A stretch of 64,000 nt of DNA, from assembly GCA_903871335.1 (NCBI GenBank), contig CAIQGE010000030.1, positions 62,001 through 126,000 on the forward strand, read 5' to 3'. Below the pieces are notes generated by a model that was not told the origin of the DNA, did not search any database, and was given only the letters and a program-made list of their open reading frames with translations. The DNA comes from an uncultured Actinomycetes bacterium. Lineage in GTDB: Bacteria; Actinomycetota; Acidimicrobiia; Acidimicrobiales; RAAP-2. How positions within the stretch are numbered: position 1 is the stretch's first letter; the number at the start of each line of letters is the position of its first letter. Of the stretch, positions 46,598 through 53,600 are shown piece by piece. Made by a program: the position numbers and the translations under genes.

Positions 46598-46685
46598 GGA
46601 GGAGTGCGAGAGCGGCCGAATCGGCACGATTGGAAATCGTGTGTGGGGAAACTCACCGTGGGTTCAAATCCCACCTCCTCCGCCA
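46598..46685 (+). tRNA. tRNA-Ser (GGA anticodon)
   Basis: Class II tRNA with acceptor GGAGGAG/CTCCTCC, anticodon arm CACGA-TTGGAAA-TCGTG (GGA), a long variable arm, T-loop TTCAAAT, discriminator G and an encoded CCA. The accessory island begins only a few nt after its 3' end, so the tRNA is the probable landmark for integration. Confidence 0.97.
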
Positions 46686-46690
46686 CCAGG

Positions 46691-46703
46691 CAAATACAGA
46701 AGT
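46691..46703 (+). repeat. Left 13-bp inverted repeat of the island
   Basis: CAAATACAGAAGT. The surrounding CGCCACnnGGCAAATACAGAAnTAG and following TTCGGA and CAAAAGTCCG blocks recur in direct orientation at 53289-53339, marking this as the left end of an element present twice. Confidence 0.6.
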
Positions 46704-46823
46704 AGACGGTTCGGAGATACAAAAGTCCGAATCTGATCAATTTCCGCGAGTTCGATGGGTTGGATCTCCAACTTCGTCGAGTGAGCGCGGTGCAGTGGTG
46801 CCGTTGTAGGTGTCGAAGACGTG

Positions 46824-46865
46824 AAAGAACCCCGCTGGGCCGTGAAAGGTCCAGCGGGGTTCTTT
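46824..46865. terminator. 15-bp hairpin between tRNA-Ser and the transposase
   Basis: Perfect arms 46824-46838 and 46851-46865 (AAAGAACCCCGCTGG and its complement) with a 12-nt loop, followed on the plus strand by GTTTC. It can terminate the transposase transcript (minus) and any tRNA-Ser read-through (plus). The loop GGCCGTGAAAGGTCC recurs nearly unchanged in the second copy at 53431-53470. Confidence 0.7.
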
Positions 46866-46887
46866 GTTTCTTGGGAGCGAGAGGTCG

Positions 46888-48480
46888 CTAGGTCGTCAGA
46901 GGGTGCAGCACGACGAGCTGGCCGTTGACGGTGTGCGTAATGCGCGTCAAACGGTGGTGGTAGGGCTCGCGCTTGACCAGCTTGCGCTTGCGGACCTTGG
47001 GAAGAGGACCGCTGAATCGGTCCCACGCGATTGCGAAGCGTCGGTTAGTTGTTGCTACAGCCGCGGCCACCATCAGGCCGGTCTTGACGATGCCGCGCAT
47101 ACGAACCTTGCCGCGCGCGAAACCAGCGACCGACTCGTCCTTCAGGGCGCCGAAGTGCGGCTCGACGCCGGTGCCACGACGCGAGTAGCTCTTGCGCCAG
47201 GCGGTGGATCCGTAGACGTCGCGCTGGTAGAGCGGCACATCGGTCGCCAGGTCAAAGGTCTTGTAGCGCGTGGCGCACACCGAGTGCGCGAGCACGATCT
47301 TCGGGTGCGTGTTGATGGGCAAGATGCCCGGACGGGGTGTGACCTTTGGGGGCTGGAGGGCGCACGAGAGTTTGCCGGCGGCTCCGGGGCACTGCATCAC
47401 GAGGCGAAGATCGACGCCGATCTTGCCGTGCGGCACCATGGCGTAGATCTCGCGCAGGGCGATCTTCTTTTCGTACTCGGCAATTTCTGACGGGTTGGGG
47501 CGATAGATGTTCGTGCCCTTGGAACGAGGGGGCTGCAAGTTGCGGAGGTTCTTCGGGATTGAGGGCGAGTAGGGGCGCCCGTCAATGATGATCGCCCCGT
47601 GGACGGTCTTGCTCGTTCCGATCTGGTTCTCGCGCAGGTCAAAGACGGGCTCGCCGCCGAGGACACGAACGGGGAGCACGAAGGCCTGGCCATCGTTTGA
47701 CGAGGTGTAGCCACGGTCCACGAGAACGTCGCCGAGTTCGCCCTGGCGCGCTTTGACTTCGACGAGAGCCGAGAGCGCCACCTGGCGGGGGTCGGACTTC
47801 GAGGTGGGGCGAAAGCGTGCCGCCTTGGCGGCCTTCGGGACTGCCGGGCCACCAATGTCAGCGACCGCGGTGGCGAGCGTCAGCTCGTAGCCAAAGAAGG
47901 GCTTCTTATTGTCCTCGTTCTTGCTCGGGCGCACGCCGGCATCGACATCGGTGACCTTCTTCACGCGTGTGTAGCGCCCAGCGACCCTCTCGTACACGGA
48001 CTGGGTGCGCGCCCAGGTCGCAATGTCCGAGCCGTCAATGGCCACCGAGAGCGAATCCCCCGACGCTTCGTGACAGCCGGCAGTAGCAATGGCCGAGAAG
48101 ATGGCGTCGAAGTCCTGGTAGCGCTCGGCGTCGTCCAGCGTGGTGTTGTTGATTCGAGGGCGCAGCGAACTGTCAATGCGCGAGATGAGGTACTGCACCT
48201 GGCGCCAGGTGATGGTGTGGCCGTAGATACCAAGGGTGCGCTTGGTAGAGGCCGACAGGCCATTCAAAATGGCGGGGATTTCTTGAATGAAGTAGTCGCC
48301 ACTAATCGACGCCAGATGAATACCAACGAGCAGAGCGCGTGCGGTGAGGACTCGAGGGCGTCCCTTGCGCTTGCTCGCGAGCTGCAACATACGGTCGATG
48401 TGTTCGTAGGCCTTGGCCGCGTCGACCAGGGCGAGAATTTCCGTCTCGACGACGGCGAGTTCGGCGGAGTTCAAGATCAT
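46888..48480 (-). CDS. DDE-type transposase
   Basis: 530 residues. A DDE triad is suggested by Asp149 (VAIDGSD), Asp255 (DVLVDRGYTS) and Glu440 (SRRGTGVEPHFGALKDE), the last resembling the E-signature of IS4/IS5/IS1182-type enzymes. The N-terminal 100 residues are helical with a probable helix-turn-helix (LSASTKRTLGIYGHTITWRQ). The family was not pinned down. Its start overlaps the stop of the recombinase-like gene by 4 nt, so both are coupled. A truncated relative of its C-terminus lies at 53496-53590. Confidence 0.75.
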   Translation of the reverse strand: MILNSAELAVVETEILALVDAAKAYEHIDRMLQLASKRKGRPRVLTARALLVGIHLASISGDYFIQEIPAILNGLSASTKRTLGIYGHTITWRQVQYLISRIDSSLRPRINNTTLDDAERYQDFDAIFSAIATAGCHEASGDSLSVAIDGSDIATWARTQSVYERVAGRYTRVKKVTDVDAGVRPSKNEDNKKPFFGYELTLATAVADIGGPAVPKAAKAARFRPTSKSDPRQVALSALVEVKARQGELGDVLVDRGYTSSNDGQAFVLPVRVLGGEPVFDLRENQIGTSKTVHGAIIIDGRPYSPSIPKNLRNLQPPRSKGTNIYRPNPSEIAEYEKKIALREIYAMVPHGKIGVDLRLVMQCPGAAGKLSCALQPPKVTPRPGILPINTHPKIVLAHSVCATRYKTFDLATDVPLYQRDVYGSTAWRKSYSRRGTGVEPHFGALKDESVAGFARGKVRMRGIVKTGLMVAAAVATTNRRFAIAWDRFSGPLPKVRKRKLVKREPYHHRLTRITHTVNGQLVVLHPLTT

Positions 48481-49466
48481 TGCTTGTCCTTGTTGCTAGT
48501 GGCGCAGGTGCGCACGATTTCGAGGTGGGTGAGATAGCCGTCGAAGGCTTCAGCACTTTGGAGGCCCGACCAGGCCAAAAGCTCAAGGAGGCCGGTGCCC
48601 TCGTTGAGCTGGGCGCAGATGTAGGCGGCGCGGAGTTGGTCGACAAAGAGCGTCGGGACACCCGGCATAGAGCTCAACCACTCGCGCGACTTTTCGACCA
48701 CGCGGTCGGCGGAGAGTTGACCGCGCAACTGACCGCTCGGGCGAGCCGCCGCGAGTTCGAGCAGGGGCTCGATGAAGTCGACGCGCACCTTGGCGCAACG
48801 TCCATCGGCGGCGACGAAGAGCTCGGCGTCGTGGTAGTGGAGGCTGTCTGCCGTCACGAAGGCGGCTGCCTGGCGAACAATGCCGCAGCCAGCACCGAGA
48901 AGCAACACGGCGGTGGCGCTGAGGCGACGGTTCTCGGTCGAGAGGCTTTCGGCGGCGCGCAGCAGCGCGGCGATCTCGTTGTCCGTGTAGGGGGTCGTGT
49001 ACGAAGGACGAGGCGTGCCGACGGGCATCGCGTCGTCGACGGAGTAGCCGTGCTCTTTTGCGAGGCGAACCAAACGACCGAGGTCGTTGCGCGAGAGCTT
49101 GGTGGCCTTGGCGTAGGCGGTGAGTACATCGAGGCGAAGCACGAACGACACGTCGAGGTCTTGGCCCCGCGCGTTGATGTACATCGCGAGGCGAACGAGC
49201 GCGCGCAGAAACGATACGAGTGAACCAGCCGACAGGTGGTTGAGCGGGGCGATGGCTTCGAGAACGCAGGGACGAATGACAGCCCACTCGTCGGGCGAGA
49301 CGATGGCGGGGCGACCCTTGGCGGGGTTGTAGCGCTCGGGGTAGGGGACCGAGGCGGGAGTATTGGGTGACTTCATGAGGCTTAGGGTGTCAATACTCAA
49401 CCGACGCGCAATCCCCGTCACGGTTTCCCCCGCTTCGCCGGCTGTGGGGGTCTTCGAGGACTTCAT
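48477..49466 (-). CDS. Degenerate tyrosine-recombinase-like protein
   Basis: 329 residues from the first ATG; a second ATG at 49376 gives 299. The C-terminal half resembles phage integrases in layout: YTDNEIAALLRAAESL, then a core helix with Arg198 (GCGIVRQAAAF), DQLRAAYICAQLNEG (276-290) at the HxxR position, and ELLAWSGLQSAEAFDGYL with Trp299 and Tyr311 at the His/Trp and Tyr positions. The first His of HxLR is Asp, so activity is uncertain. It overlaps the transposase by 4 nt and may target or regulate it. I do not know a named family. Confidence 0.5.
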   Translation of the reverse strand: MKSSKTPTAGEAGETVTGIARRLSIDTLSLMKSPNTPASVPYPERYNPAKGRPAIVSPDEWAVIRPCVLEAIAPLNHLSAGSLVSFLRALVRLAMYINARGQDLDVSFVLRLDVLTAYAKATKLSRNDLGRLVRLAKEHGYSVDDAMPVGTPRPSYTTPYTDNEIAALLRAAESLSTENRRLSATAVLLLGAGCGIVRQAAAFVTADSLHYHDAELFVAADGRCAKVRVDFIEPLLELAAARPSGQLRGQLSADRVVEKSREWLSSMPGVPTLFVDQLRAAYICAQLNEGTGLLELLAWSGLQSAEAFDGYLTHLEIVRTCATSNKDKQ

Positions 49467-49660
49467 GGATTCATGGTGTCCGTCATCAGCACCCGGGCAC
49501 TTACCGGGGATCGCCTTGGTTCAGCGCTCACGGACTCGTCTTCTCTGAACAGCTACGCGTACCCCGGGGATCGTTGGTCATTCTCAACGTGGAGCCCACG
49601 TAGAGACCCATCGCCATAGTCGATTCGTGTCACTGCCGTTGTTAGTTTTGGATGCAGGCA

Positions 49661-49697
49661 TTGGCACGGTTGAGCGTGACCATATAGATGCGCTCAA
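49661..49697 (+). promoter_or_regulatory. Promoter with operator-like inverted repeat upstream of the methyltransferase
   Basis: -35 TTGGCA (49661-49666) and -10 TATAGA (49683-49688), spacer 16 nt, 28 nt before the methyltransferase ATG. TTGAGCG (49670-49676) and CGCTCAA (49691-49697) form a 7-bp inverted repeat with 14 nt between, exactly bracketing the -10. That is a suitable place for autorepression. The rest of the 249-nt gap (49467-49660) shows only minor stems. Confidence 0.5.
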
Positions 49698-49715
49698 TCA
49701 CGAGGAAGGATCAAG

Positions 49716-50867
49716 ATGGCCAATAGCAACCTTGGTAAGGCAAAGGCTGCAAAGAACGACGAGTTCTACACGCAGTACGCCGACATCGAAAAAGAGATGA
49801 ACGCCTACTTGGACTTTGACGCTGATGTCTTCCGCGACAAGGTGGTGCTGCTCCCTTGCGACGACCCGGAGTGGTCGAACTTCACCAAGTACTTTGCCCA
49901 GAACTTCGACAAGCTCGGGCTAAAGAAACTCATCAGCACGAGCTACGCCCCGGACGCAAAGCCCAAGGAACTCAACCTGCAGATGTCCCTGTTCGAGCAA
50001 GAGAGCCCCAAGTTCGACAAGAAGAAGGCGCGGACGAATGGACGCGTCTTCACTCTCGAGCGTGACCGTAACGGCGACAAGAAGATCAACTTTGACGACA
50101 TCGAATGGGACTATCTCAAAGGCGATGGGGACTTCCGTAGTGACGAGGTGAGGGCGCTCCGTGACCAAGCTGACATCATCGTGACGAACCCCCCGTTCTC
50201 GCTTTTCAGAGAGTTTCTCGCGTGGATTTTGGAATCTGACAAGAAGTTTGTGATTATTGGCAACCAGAATGCGATTACTTACAAAGACGTCTTTCCTTTA
50301 ATCAAGGAAAACAAGATCTGGCTAGGGAACGGCTTCACTCGAAACATGGCGCACTTTTACACCCCGTACGTTCCATACAGCAAGTGGATTGAGCAAGAGG
50401 GCGAAAACGTTGTGCGCGTCGCTGGCGTGCAGTGGTTTACCAACATCGACCACGGCAAGCGACACCAACCGCTTCAGTTGATGACTAAGGCTGACAACAA
50501 GAAGTTCAGCAAGCACAAGGAAGTGAAGGGCGTTGGTTACCAAAAGTACGACAACTACGACGCCATTGAAGTGCCGTTCACCGATGCGATTCCAAGCGAT
50601 CACAAGGGTGTGATGGGTGTGCCGATCAGCTTCCTAAGCAAGTACAACCCCGAGCAGTTTGAAATCATTGGTATGTGCGAGAACCAAGATCTGTATGGAC
50701 TTAAGACTAAAAAGTACGCATCTACTGAGTGCAAGGCTGCATACACAGCGAAGTTCGGAAAACCAGGAACGTATGACTTGAACGCTTCAGGAGTTGTGAC
50801 GATTGGGGGAATCCAAGAGAAGGTCTATCAAAGGATTCTGATCCGCCACAGGAAGGTAGCCAAATGA
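49716..50867 (+). CDS. Adenine-specific DNA methyltransferase, M.EcoRI family
   Basis: 383 residues closely following remembered M.Eco[18 protein letters not shown] at the start, [53 protein letters not shown] with catalytic motif NPPF (158-161), and [22 protein letters not shown]. It should methylate adenine N6 using S-adenosylmethionine. The target may or may not be GAATTC. A strong AGGAAGGA site precedes the ATG. No R.EcoRI-like gene is next to it. Instead the next gene, overlapping by 4 nt, is a DUF262-HNH nuclease. Codon use is A/T-richer than in neighbours. Confidence 0.88.
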
Positions 50868-52024
50868 GAACTGAACTTGAGCACTACACCGTCCGCGACA
50901 TCGTCGAGGACTTCACCTACAACGAGCTCGAGGGCAAGGGTCTCTACGGGCTCGCCGGCAATCTCACGATCCAGCCCGAGTACCAGCGCAACTACATCTA
51001 CGTCGAAAAGGGCCGTGATGCTGCAGTTATTGACTCTCTCTTGAAGGGCTACCCGCTGGGGTTGATCTACTTTAACCAGGCCCCCAACGGACAGCTCGAA
51101 GTCCTCGACGGCCAGCAGCGCATCACCAGCTTTGGTCGTTTCGTAAAGGGCCAGTTCGCGGTCATCAATGATAAGGACATGCCGATGTACTTCTCGAGCT
51201 TGCCCCAAGATCAACAAGACCTCATCTTGGACTCGGAGATCTTGGTCTACGTCTGCACTGGTACTGAGTCAGAGATCAAGTCCTGGTTCAAGACCATCAA
51301 CATCGCCGGCGTGCCCCTGAACGACCAAGAACTACTCAACGCGGTCTACTCCGGCCCCTTCGTCACCGCGGGCAAGGCGGAGTTCTCCAACACTCAGAAC
51401 GCCAACGTCCAGAAGTGGAGTGCGTACGTTGCGGGGTCGGTCAATCGACAGGACTTCTGGGAGTGCGCACTTGACTGGGTGAGCCAAGGCGACATTCAGG
51501 GCTATATGGCCAAGCACCGCAACGACAAGGACATCAAGGCCGTCAAGACCTACTTCACGACCGTCATCGACTGGGTGTCATCCGTCTTTACCGAGGTCGA
51601 AAAGGAGATGCGCGGCCTGCCCTGGGGGCGGCTCTACGAGACCTACCACTCCAACTCCTACGACTCCAAGAAGATTGCCAAGCGGGTCAAGGATCTGTAC
51701 GGCGACGAGTGCGTGACCAGTCACAAGGGAATCTTTGAGTATGTCCTCGGTGGCGAGAAGGACAAGAGACTGCTCGAAATCCGCCTCTTCGATGACCGCA
51801 CGAAGCGCGTTGCCTATGAGAAGCAGACCACAGAGGCGGCTGAGAAGGGCGCTTCGAACTGTTCAGTGTGCGCATCGGTGCAGAACGCCAACCAGGAAAG
51901 GATCTGGAAGCTGTCTGAGATGGACGCGGACCACGTGACTGCGTGGAGCAAGGGCGGCTCGACGGCAGCCAGCAACTGCGAGATGCTGTGCCGGGCTCAC
52001 AACCAGGCCAAGGGCAACAAATAA
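50864..52024 (+). CDS. DUF262 (ParB-like/GmrS-type) protein with C-terminal HNH nuclease
   Basis: 386 residues. The N-terminal domain has the DUF262 hallmarks [10 protein letters not shown] (37-46) and DGQQR (82-86), a ParB/Srx-like NTP-binding fold found in modification-dependent nucleases such as GmrSD. The C-terminus is an HNH domain with zinc Cys333 and Cys336 plus Cys372 and Cys376, and catalytic His357 (DADHV), Asn371 and His379. The ATGA overlap with the methyltransferase indicates a single operon, so it is the likely restriction partner. Substrate is inferred, not known. Confidence 0.82.
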
Positions 52025-52065
52025 GTGCTTAGCGGAGAGACGTTTACGCTGCAAAGCTTCCCTGC

Positions 52066-52093
52066 TTGACATTTCGACAGGTCCTGGTACAGT
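52066..52093 (+). promoter_or_regulatory. Promoter of the Abi_2 transcript
   Basis: Consensus -35 TTGACA (52066-52071) and -10 TACAGT (52088-52093) with a 16-nt spacer. Transcription would begin near 52100, directly before the 40-nt hairpin and 55 nt before the Abi_2 start. This is among the best sigma-70-like promoters in the window. Confidence 0.65.
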
Positions 52094-52105
52094 TGTTCGT
52101 ACTAC

Positions 52106-52145
52106 GACCCGTCCCGTCGGCACCTTCGAGGTGCGGGGGCGGGTC
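52106..52145 (+). ncRNA. Structured leader RNA upstream of the Abi_2 gene (abiF-RNA-like candidate)
   Basis: A 40-nt hairpin: GACCCG (52106-52111) pairs with CGGGTC (52140-52145), CCC (52113-52115) with GGG, and an inner GCACC (52120-52124) with GGTGC (52130-52134) around TTCGA. It starts a few nt after the predicted transcription start and ends 9 nt before the Abi_2 ATG. Structured RNAs are known upstream of some abiF genes (Rfam has an abiF RNA motif). Membership here needs a covariance search. Confidence 0.5.
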
Positions 52146-52154
52146 ATCTTGTCT

Positions 52155-53126
52155 ATGAGCACCTATTCAAAACCCTGGCTATCAGTTGCTGATCAAATCG
52201 CGCACCTCCAAGCGCGGGGCATGCACATCCCGAACGTCGACCGTGCCAAGAGGTACCTCACAACTGCTGGCTACTACCACCTCAGCGGTTACTGGTACCC
52301 AATGCGCAGCAGCGGTGTTGTTAACGGCCAGAGAGTAGTGCTTGACAGCTTCTTGCCACTTGTGTCATTCGACCACGTAGTGGCCATGTTCCAGTTCGAC
52401 AAGGAGTTGAGGACATTACTTCTCGAGGCAATCACTCGAATCGAGCAGGCCCTGAAGGTTGATTTAGCCCATCACCTTGGCAAGGAGGACACTTTTGCCC
52501 ATCTGCACGCGCGGCACTTCAGCCCTGGTTTTGTGAATCCCCAGCCAAAGCTTCTCAAGAACGGTGCTACTCGAACACCAGTGAGCCACGCAGACTGGAT
52601 CATTTCTCACAACAAGAAGTTGACCCGCCCGAACGAGTTCGTGAAGCACCATCAGCGTAAGTACGGCCCGGAGTTGCCAATCTGGGTGGCCATTGAGGTC
52701 ATGGATTTTGGAGACGTGCTTTACCTAATCGACGGGTTGAGGCAGAAGTGGCGGGCGCCTATGGCGGTTCGATTCGGGCTTCCCGATGAGAGTCGCTTCT
52801 CAAGCTGGTTGGGAGCGTTACGAAGTCTTCGCAACCTCTGTGCGCACCACGGGAGAGTTTGGAACCACGCATCGCCTGCAATCCCGGCAACTGTTTCACT
52901 GAAAGAACTTCCTCAGTTCTCGAGCCTTCACGGCCCACCGTCGCTGTGGAACAAGCCCTACGCCACATTCATGATTGTGGCTTACCTGAATAAGCAAGTG
53001 GTTCCAGCAAGCCGTTGGCAACAGCGCTTTGCGGCAGCCTTGGCAACCATCCCTGCTGCTCCTGGGATCGACATTAAGTACGCTGGTGCTCCAGCCAACT
53101 GGGCCACAGATCCGACGTGGCTCTAA
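52155..53126 (+). CDS. Abi_2 (AbiD/AbiF-like) abortive infection protein
   Basis: 323 residues from the ATG at 52155; no clear ribosome site is visible, as the leader hairpin occupies it. Family marks include KPWLSVADQIAHLQARGM, YYHLSGYWYPM, FDKELRTLLLEAITRIEQALK and a HEPN-type RxxxxH motif (Arg226 to His231 in LRNLCAHHGRVWN). That motif is the probable RNase active site. Such proteins act as phage-triggered toxins. It stands alone behind its own promoter, after the methyltransferase-nuclease operon. Confidence 0.85.
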   Translation: MSTYSKPWLSVADQIAHLQARGMHIPNVDRAKRYLTTAGYYHLSGYWYPMRSSGVVNGQRVVLDSFLPLVSFDHVVAMFQFDKELRTLLLEAITRIEQALKVDLAHHLGKEDTFAHLHARHFSPGFVNPQPKLLKNGATRTPVSHADWIISHNKKLTRPNEFVKHHQRKYGPELPIWVAIEVMDFGDVLYLIDGLRQKWRAPMAVRFGLPDESRFSSWLGALRSLRNLCAHHGRVWNHASPAIPATVSLKELPQFSSLHGPPSLWNKPYATFMIVAYLNKQVVPASRWQQRFAAALATIPAAPGIDIKYAGAPANWATDPTWL

Positions 53127-53270
53127 CCGCTCACTACCGACAAGAAGCGCGGTTGGTCTCAAATGTCATTGTTTGTCCGGTTTCTGCCCCATCAATTGAA
53201 AAATCTGACGCGTAGCTCTGAAAAGTGGTTTCCCTACTCTGAGAAGTACCGACGCCACTTGGGATCTGGA

Positions 53271-53283
53271 CTTCTGTATTTGG
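53271..53283 (-). repeat. Right 13-bp inverted repeat of the island
   Basis: Reverse complement of CAAATACAGAAGT, 145 nt after the Abi_2 stop. Fourteen nt further, the left-end sequence of a second element copy begins, forming an 11-bp inverted repeat pair at 53273-53283 and 53297-53307. The stretch 53127-53270 shows no gene. Confidence 0.6.
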
Positions 53284-53288
53284 CTCGC

Positions 53289-53600
53289 CACGCGGCAAAT
53301 ACAGAAATAGGCAATTCGGAAGTGCAAAAGTCCGGATTTACGACTTCTTGATGCCACGTTCGACTGGCAAGTGCCAGTGGAACGTGATGTGAGGGCTGCA
53401 CCTGCTGTCCGAGCATCATCGAAGACGAAGAGAACCCCCGCAGGGCCGTGACAGGTCCCACGGGGGTTCTTCGTTTCGTTCGACCAGCGTTTGGGTCAGG
53501 TCAAAAGTGGGTGCAAGACCTCGGTACGACTGCCCACCTGACGCGTGATGCGAGTGAGACGGTGGTGGTAGGAGTCGCGAGGGTTTTCCTTGGGTGCGGG
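53289..53600 (+). mobile_element. Decayed second copy of the island left end
   Basis: The order of parts repeats 46685-46970: the CGCCAC-GGCAAATACAGAA block, TTCGGA and CAAAAGTCCG, an intervening hairpin (53355-53386), a terminator hairpin (53431-53440 with 53461-53470, loop GGCCGTGACAGGTCC), then the 3' end of a transposase gene on the minus strand. Similarity is clear but interrupted by many substitutions, so this copy is old. It lies in the 623-nt space between the Abi_2 and SGNH hydrolase genes; nothing else recognisable was seen in that space. Confidence 0.6.
53496..53590 (-). pseudogene. C-terminal remnant of a transposase
   Basis: The minus-strand translation reads RDSYHHRLTRIT, then a diverged stretch, then VLHPLLT and a stop. 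The intact transposase ends REPYHHRLTRITHTVNG then VLHPLTT. Nine residues (YHHRLTRIT) are identical. Nothing upstream of about 53600 continues the reading frame convincingly, so only about the last 30 codons remain. Confidence 0.75.

Follow-up and report, generated by a model that had tools for sequence, protein, structure and literature searches.

The stretch of actinobacterial DNA analysed here (64,000 nt, the window) carries a 6.6-kb, five-gene element at a tRNA-Ser gene (46687–53286) that likely represents a non-Tn7 transposon of an apparently undescribed family in which a dead integrase serves as target selector; this selector role is inferred and is not supported by any experiment. The transposition module consists of a DDE transposase gene and an integrase-like gene that overlap by 4 nt, and the cargo lies between this module and the far end of the element. 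The features are:

46598–46685, plus strand: tRNA-Ser(gga), the target gene (ARAGORN), undamaged by the insertion
46682–46686, plus strand: left target-site duplication GCCAC, tRNA positions 73–77
46687–46702, plus strand: left terminal inverted repeat CAGGCAAATACAGAAG, 14/16 match to the right end
46694–46703, plus strand: subterminal direct repeat copy 1, ATACAGAAGT, read from the sequence; relatives have the two-copy layout
46717–46726, plus strand: subterminal direct repeat copy 2, ATACAAAAGT, 23 bp from copy 1, read from the sequence
46888–48480, minus strand: DDE transposase, 530 aa, predicted Tn5-like fold, D149/D255/E440
48477–49466, minus strand: integrase-fold protein (predicted) without the catalytic set, 329 aa; proposed target selector
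49716–50867, plus strand: cargo, EcoRI-type adenine methyltransferase, type II (Pfam PF13651, E 7e-128; PADLOC MTase_II, E 2e-92)
50864–52024, plus strand: cargo, GmrSD_N-HNH protein (Pfam), a type II restriction enzyme by PADLOC (REase_II, E 3.5e-94)
52131–53126, plus strand: cargo, AbiD/Abi_2 abortive-infection protein (Pfam PF07751, E 6e-47; PADLOC AbiD, E 1e-53)
53271–53286, minus strand: right terminal inverted repeat, reverse complement GAGCCAAATACAGAAG
53287–53291, plus strand: right target-site duplication GCCAC
53292–53591, minus strand: older decayed element of the same family (left end plus transposase C-terminal remnant) behind the intact copy

The decayed copy is recognized by a match to the transposase tail at 53499–53591 (E 5e-4) and by repeats (D2, D3), and no far end of it was located. 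The defence cassette (49716–53126) is compact, the methyltransferase and GmrSD_N-HNH genes overlapping by 4 nt and being followed by AbiD, and is oriented divergently from the transposition genes. A first-pass annotation, made from the sequence alone, had placed two genes with a 4-nt overlap at 46888–49466, which held, both reading frames (530 and 329 aa) lying on the minus strand. It recognized neither the target nor the ends of the element, and it mentioned neither the defence cargo nor the older copy behind it.

The pair is a conserved unit across Actinomycetota. An integrase-like gene lies immediately upstream of the transposase gene in 57 of 63 loci with a full-length transposase; over the 63 loci the spacing is exactly a 4-nt overlap in 32 and between −4 and +7 nt in 54, and nine loci have two integrase-like genes. 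With the window transposase as query, relatives were found in 16 of 396 genomes of the phylum, and a profile search found them in 28 of these 396 and in 59 of 298 genomes of the order. A broad alignment offered no conserved stretch usable as a query and a narrower one served to scan named genomes, yielding 53 loci that include Streptomyces, Corynebacterium, Actinomadura, Thermomonospora, Pseudoclavibacter, Microbacterium and Acidimicrobiaceae. A loci search seeded with the single window proteins gave no match in genome or viral contigs. No relatives were found in viral contigs or phage records, and a phage origin of the pair was dropped for this reason. Plasmid matches were all actinobacterial, the chromosomes of other phyla being covered by the named-genome scan only; those annotated plasmid records that were examined contain the pair too, under no other label than hypothetical proteins. 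Family members on large Streptomyces and Rhodococcus plasmids (L216, L217, L026, L027) have no tRNA gene within the stretches checked, and such tRNA-less members may possibly spread horizontally by way of a different target.

The 530-aa protein is a DDE transposase with an invariant catalytic triad and an RNase-H-like, Tn5-like fold, the latter predicted by model. The triad claimed in the first-pass annotation (Asp149, Asp255, Glu440) held and is invariant in an alignment of 28 transposases. The structural model (pLDDT 73) includes an N-terminal helical region and matches Tn5 transposase with Z 16.4 over 292 residues (rmsd 4.5); retroviral integrase cores match too. Taken alone, neither the 530-aa nor the 329-aa protein scores above any Pfam or NCBIfam cut-off. 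The transposase has weak IS1182/DDE_Tnp_1_6 similarity near its C-terminus, around the glutamate, and fails IS1182 membership at 21.4 bits against the NCBIfam NF033551 cut-off of 270, as it does DDE_Tnp_1_6 (PF13751) at 19 bits against a cut-off of 25.

The 329-aa partner is predicted to have the CB plus CAT fold of tyrosine recombinases, and its family profile agrees, so that the earlier claim of a phage-integrase-like protein held. An AlphaFold model from 33 sequences (pLDDT 80, with low confidence for residues 1–44) contains a helical N-terminal domain at 58–138 and a CAT-like domain at 162–324. Matches to XerH (Z 14.5, 265 residues, rmsd 4.8), the Tn1549 integrase (Z 14.2, 250 residues, rmsd 4.8) and Cre (Z about 14) span both domains, and further matches are lambda integrase and the phage regulators YopR, MrpR and SroF. 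Independently of structure, the family profile matches an XerC-like recombinase (E 2e-12) and XerA (E 4e-7), and PF00589 matches 9 of the 33 family members. A weak HD-CE match of the 329-aa protein (E 0.04, below cut-off) was dismissed as chance.

The family of 33 aligned sequences fails the criterion of a complete tyrosine recombinase set of R, HxxR, H/W and Y. Arg-II is the sole invariant catalytic residue (33/33; R279 in the window), the Arg-I column holds R in 13 sequences and D in 16 (V197 in the window), and the column of the catalytic tyrosine, occupied by Y311 in the window, holds Tyr in 15. Because catalytic residues are lost across the family, the family as a whole cannot depend on recombinase chemistry. 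Of the assignments made for this protein beforehand, Arg198 as catalytic arginine failed; DQLR at 276–279 corresponds to the HxxR position, in which the His position is never His; Tyr311 was placed in the right column, but that column is far from invariant; and the claimed loss of the HxxR histidine held and extends to every sequence (His in 0/33).

A rival explanation is that the partner is an active tyrosine recombinase, either a resolvase as in Tn4430 (TnpI plus TnpA) or a true integrase with the tRNA gene as attB. In its favor, the fold is right, a tyrosine stands in the expected column in about half of the family and the first arginine in 13 of 33; also, tRNA 3′ ends are classic attB sites. 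Against it, the HxxR histidine is missing throughout, 18 of 33 sequences have Ile, Val or Leu in place of the tyrosine, and the 5-bp duplications with inverted repeats described below are a DDE-type product and not a longer tRNA 3′ segment. We regard this explanation as very unlikely and retain an inactive partner.

Some members carry more than one copy of the partner. The upstream protein of L101 is double-length and matches the integrase-like profile twice, and in L171–L174 (Corynebacterium), L027 and L106 two successive integrase-like genes, one more divergent, lie upstream of the transposase gene. The role of the second gene is unexplained; a heterodimeric selector is one possibility.

At most loci a tRNA or tmRNA gene is located just beyond the transposase stop, on the opposite strand and with its 3′ end toward the element. 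Such a facing gene (Ser, Leu, Gly, Tyr, Val, Met, Cys, Ala or tmRNA) was found at 34 of 54 loci from the genome search, the remainder including several truncated by contig ends or representing weak matches, and at 33 of the 41 named loci with at least 700 nt downstream (Leu, Glu, Val, Pro); only two other tRNA genes occur in the 566 kb of the named loci. The orientation was identical in every case found. Beyond these 33, L143, L148 and L155 adjoin a partial tRNA 3′ half that ARAGORN did not call. At L143 and L148 the element abuts the 3′ half of a tRNA (T-arm, acceptor) whose 5′ half is absent or altered, which might reflect a later rearrangement at the target. In the window's own genome, broken transposase copies on two other contigs (L030 on C10 and L031 on C16) lie beside tRNA-Ser(tga) and tRNA-Arg(tct), arranged as in the family generally. 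As a control, 24 generic PF13751 transposases from the same order were examined, after two family members, a probable remnant (L205) and three truncated loci had been set aside; none of the 24 showed the tRNA arrangement within 600 nt, and none had an integrase-like partner.

Nine elements could be delimited at both ends, and all have inverted repeats and 5-bp duplications, at tRNA-Ser, Met, Val, Leu and Glu genes and at tmRNA. An inverted repeat of at least 13/16 together with an exact 5-bp duplication at the tRNA end was found at 8 of 51 loci compared with 1 of 450 random positions. The duplication starts 19 nt after the T-loop TTCRA in eight of the nine (window, L101, L105, L106, L114, L117, L144, L151) and 20 nt after it in L107, where an ambiguous 7-bp match includes 19; by tRNA numbering the start is nucleotide 73, with a 1-nt ambiguity in that one element. 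An apparent scatter of duplication positions arises from ARAGORN's placement of the gene end (CCA encoded or absent) and vanishes on counting from the T-loop. The far ends of about 40 loci remain undetermined, many having only 6 kb upstream available or lying on cut contigs. In relatives, the sequence following the tRNA contains the terminal motif, which recurs in direct orientation about 20 nt further along. The tRNA-Ser(gga) site is empty in a sister genome, whose similarity stops at window position 46686 and whose sequence then continues with no element.

The smallest elements found, L144 and L151, are about 3 kb and have no genes besides the pair. They share 78% identity in the transposase and 65% in the partner, and they occupy tRNA-Leu and tRNA-Glu; the idea of one tRNA type per element was rejected because relatives with partners this similar sit at these two different tRNAs. 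Cargo in other elements comprises type I restriction-modification genes (L105, L106) and an OLD/AAA-type ATPase (L107). L106 has a DUF488 gene (1310–1807) on its tmRNA side, between that end of the element and the transposase gene, so cargo is possible there too. At three loci (window, L101, L114) another element end starts directly after the right duplication, and therefore the site has been re-used and copies stack. Cargo, stacking and a constant tRNA position and orientation are thus seen directly in these elements, and insertion at a fixed tRNA position in one orientation is very likely the pattern of the family.

It could be argued that insertion is unspecific and that tRNA flanks are merely safe sites where copies persist. 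tRNA flanks are indeed hotspots of genomic islands. Against this explanation, which is very unlikely, the orientation is fixed in all cases, a single exact nucleotide is used across unrelated tRNAs and tmRNA, and the tRNA arrangement is absent in the related PF13751 transposases. A second alternative, unlikely though less readily set aside, is that the transposase alone recognizes the tRNA gene 3′ end and that the partner is a regulator or assembly factor like YopR, MrpR and SroF. These DNA-binding phage regulators are among the partner's fold matches, and the N-terminal helical region of the transposase, whose role is untested, could serve such recognition. Against transposase-only recognition, the 24 partnerless PF13751 transposases include none at tRNA ends, and the tight gene coupling in most members suggests that both proteins act jointly. 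We therefore favor a selector role for the partner.

In the mechanism we propose, the DDE transposase would cut and join the element ends, giving rise to the 5-bp target duplication, and the partner, which retains the tyrosine-recombinase fold but not the chemistry, would act as the target selector. At the DNA level it would bind the 3′ part of the tRNA or tmRNA gene, comprising the T-arm and acceptor stem, and would direct the transposase in one orientation, with joining at a 5-nt stagger at tRNA positions 73–77. The duplication would restore the tRNA 3′ end; because that end is regenerated, the tRNA would survive and the site would be reusable, allowing tandem stacks. The distance from the T-loop to position 73 is equal in tRNA and tmRNA, and a protein reading that block would, we infer, explain the whole target range. 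The function of the partner as DNA-recognition subunit, its contact with the transposase and the reading of the T-arm/acceptor block are all inferred only. The first-pass annotation had suggested that the partner might not be a catalyst but a subunit for DNA binding or targeting, a suggestion that is supported and fits all the evidence, the targeting role itself being an inference; it would have been refuted had there been no integrase fold or had the pair seldom been adjacent elsewhere, and neither applies, as the fold was matched and the pair recurs in the great majority of loci (57/63).

Several points count against the selector reading. Target recognition could reside in the transposase itself, and the absence of a partner is not the only feature that sets the control transposases apart. 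Some family copies, e.g., the checked Streptomyces and Rhodococcus plasmid ones, have no adjoining tRNA. The far end has been located for only nine elements, and the second integrase-like gene of some members is without explanation. A bolder reading, toward which we lean only slightly, is that these elements form a new class of Tn7-independent site-directed bacterial transposon in which a single DDE transposase would be guided by a dead integrase that reads the T-arm plus acceptor stem common to tRNA and tmRNA. Insertion would occur at nucleotide 73 irrespective of the tRNA and without an ATPase, and in the absence of visible target immunity, elements with defence genes would build up in tandem.

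The pairing of these two enzyme classes, which had been annotated as non-standard, needs a qualifier, as target selection in the Tn7-like Tn6022 relies on TnsF, an inactive tyrosine recombinase (PMC10293859). The likeness is that an inactivated tyrosine-recombinase-fold protein picks a fixed chromosomal target for a DDE transposon, which for the new family is said by analogy. Tn6022, however, requires TnsA, TnsB, TnsC and TniQ and targets comM, whereas the new family has one transposase, no ATPase, no TniQ and a tRNA/tmRNA target; by domain layout, without direct sequence comparison, TnsF combines zinc fingers at its N-terminus with two CB domains and an incomplete CAT, whereas the 329-aa protein has one CB plus CAT. 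No Tn7-like genes (TnsC ATPase, TniQ and related) were found by Pfam among the five genes of the window element, and the elements of about 3 kb have room for the pair only and hence not for such genes. The TnsD-type CAST I-B2 and I-D systems home to tRNA genes (PMC10293859), a protein-guided tRNA-gene insertion as in the new family, but do so with Tn7 machinery including TniQ/TnsD and without an integrase-fold selector. IS1182/DDE_Tnp_1_6 (PF13751) elements share a distant likeness in the transposase C-terminus, but those examined have neither partner nor tRNA target. Tn4430, of the Tn3 family, pairs the DDE transposase TnpA with the tyrosine-recombinase-family protein TnpI; in that element, unlike the new family, TnpI is a catalytically active resolvase, the transposase is of the Tn3 type and there is no tRNA targeting. 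YopR, MrpR and SroF use the recombinase fold for DNA binding or regulation, as their PDB titles indicate, and are catalytically inactive, but they are phage regulators and not transposon parts. No description of this two-gene family was found in the literature searched, which did not cover subscription journals or preprints; it is apparently a new transposon family and may well be a new class of transposon.

If this reading is correct, two proteins would suffice to insert cargo at an exact nucleotide beside several tRNA genes without harm to them, placing these elements among the simplest protein-guided site-specific DDE transposons, and recombinase-fold proteins would have become target selectors outside the Tn7 world too. 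The family accounts for a class of tRNA-adjoining islands in Actinomycetota, including Streptomyces and Corynebacterium, some of which carry defence genes, and its elements can transport anti-phage genes.
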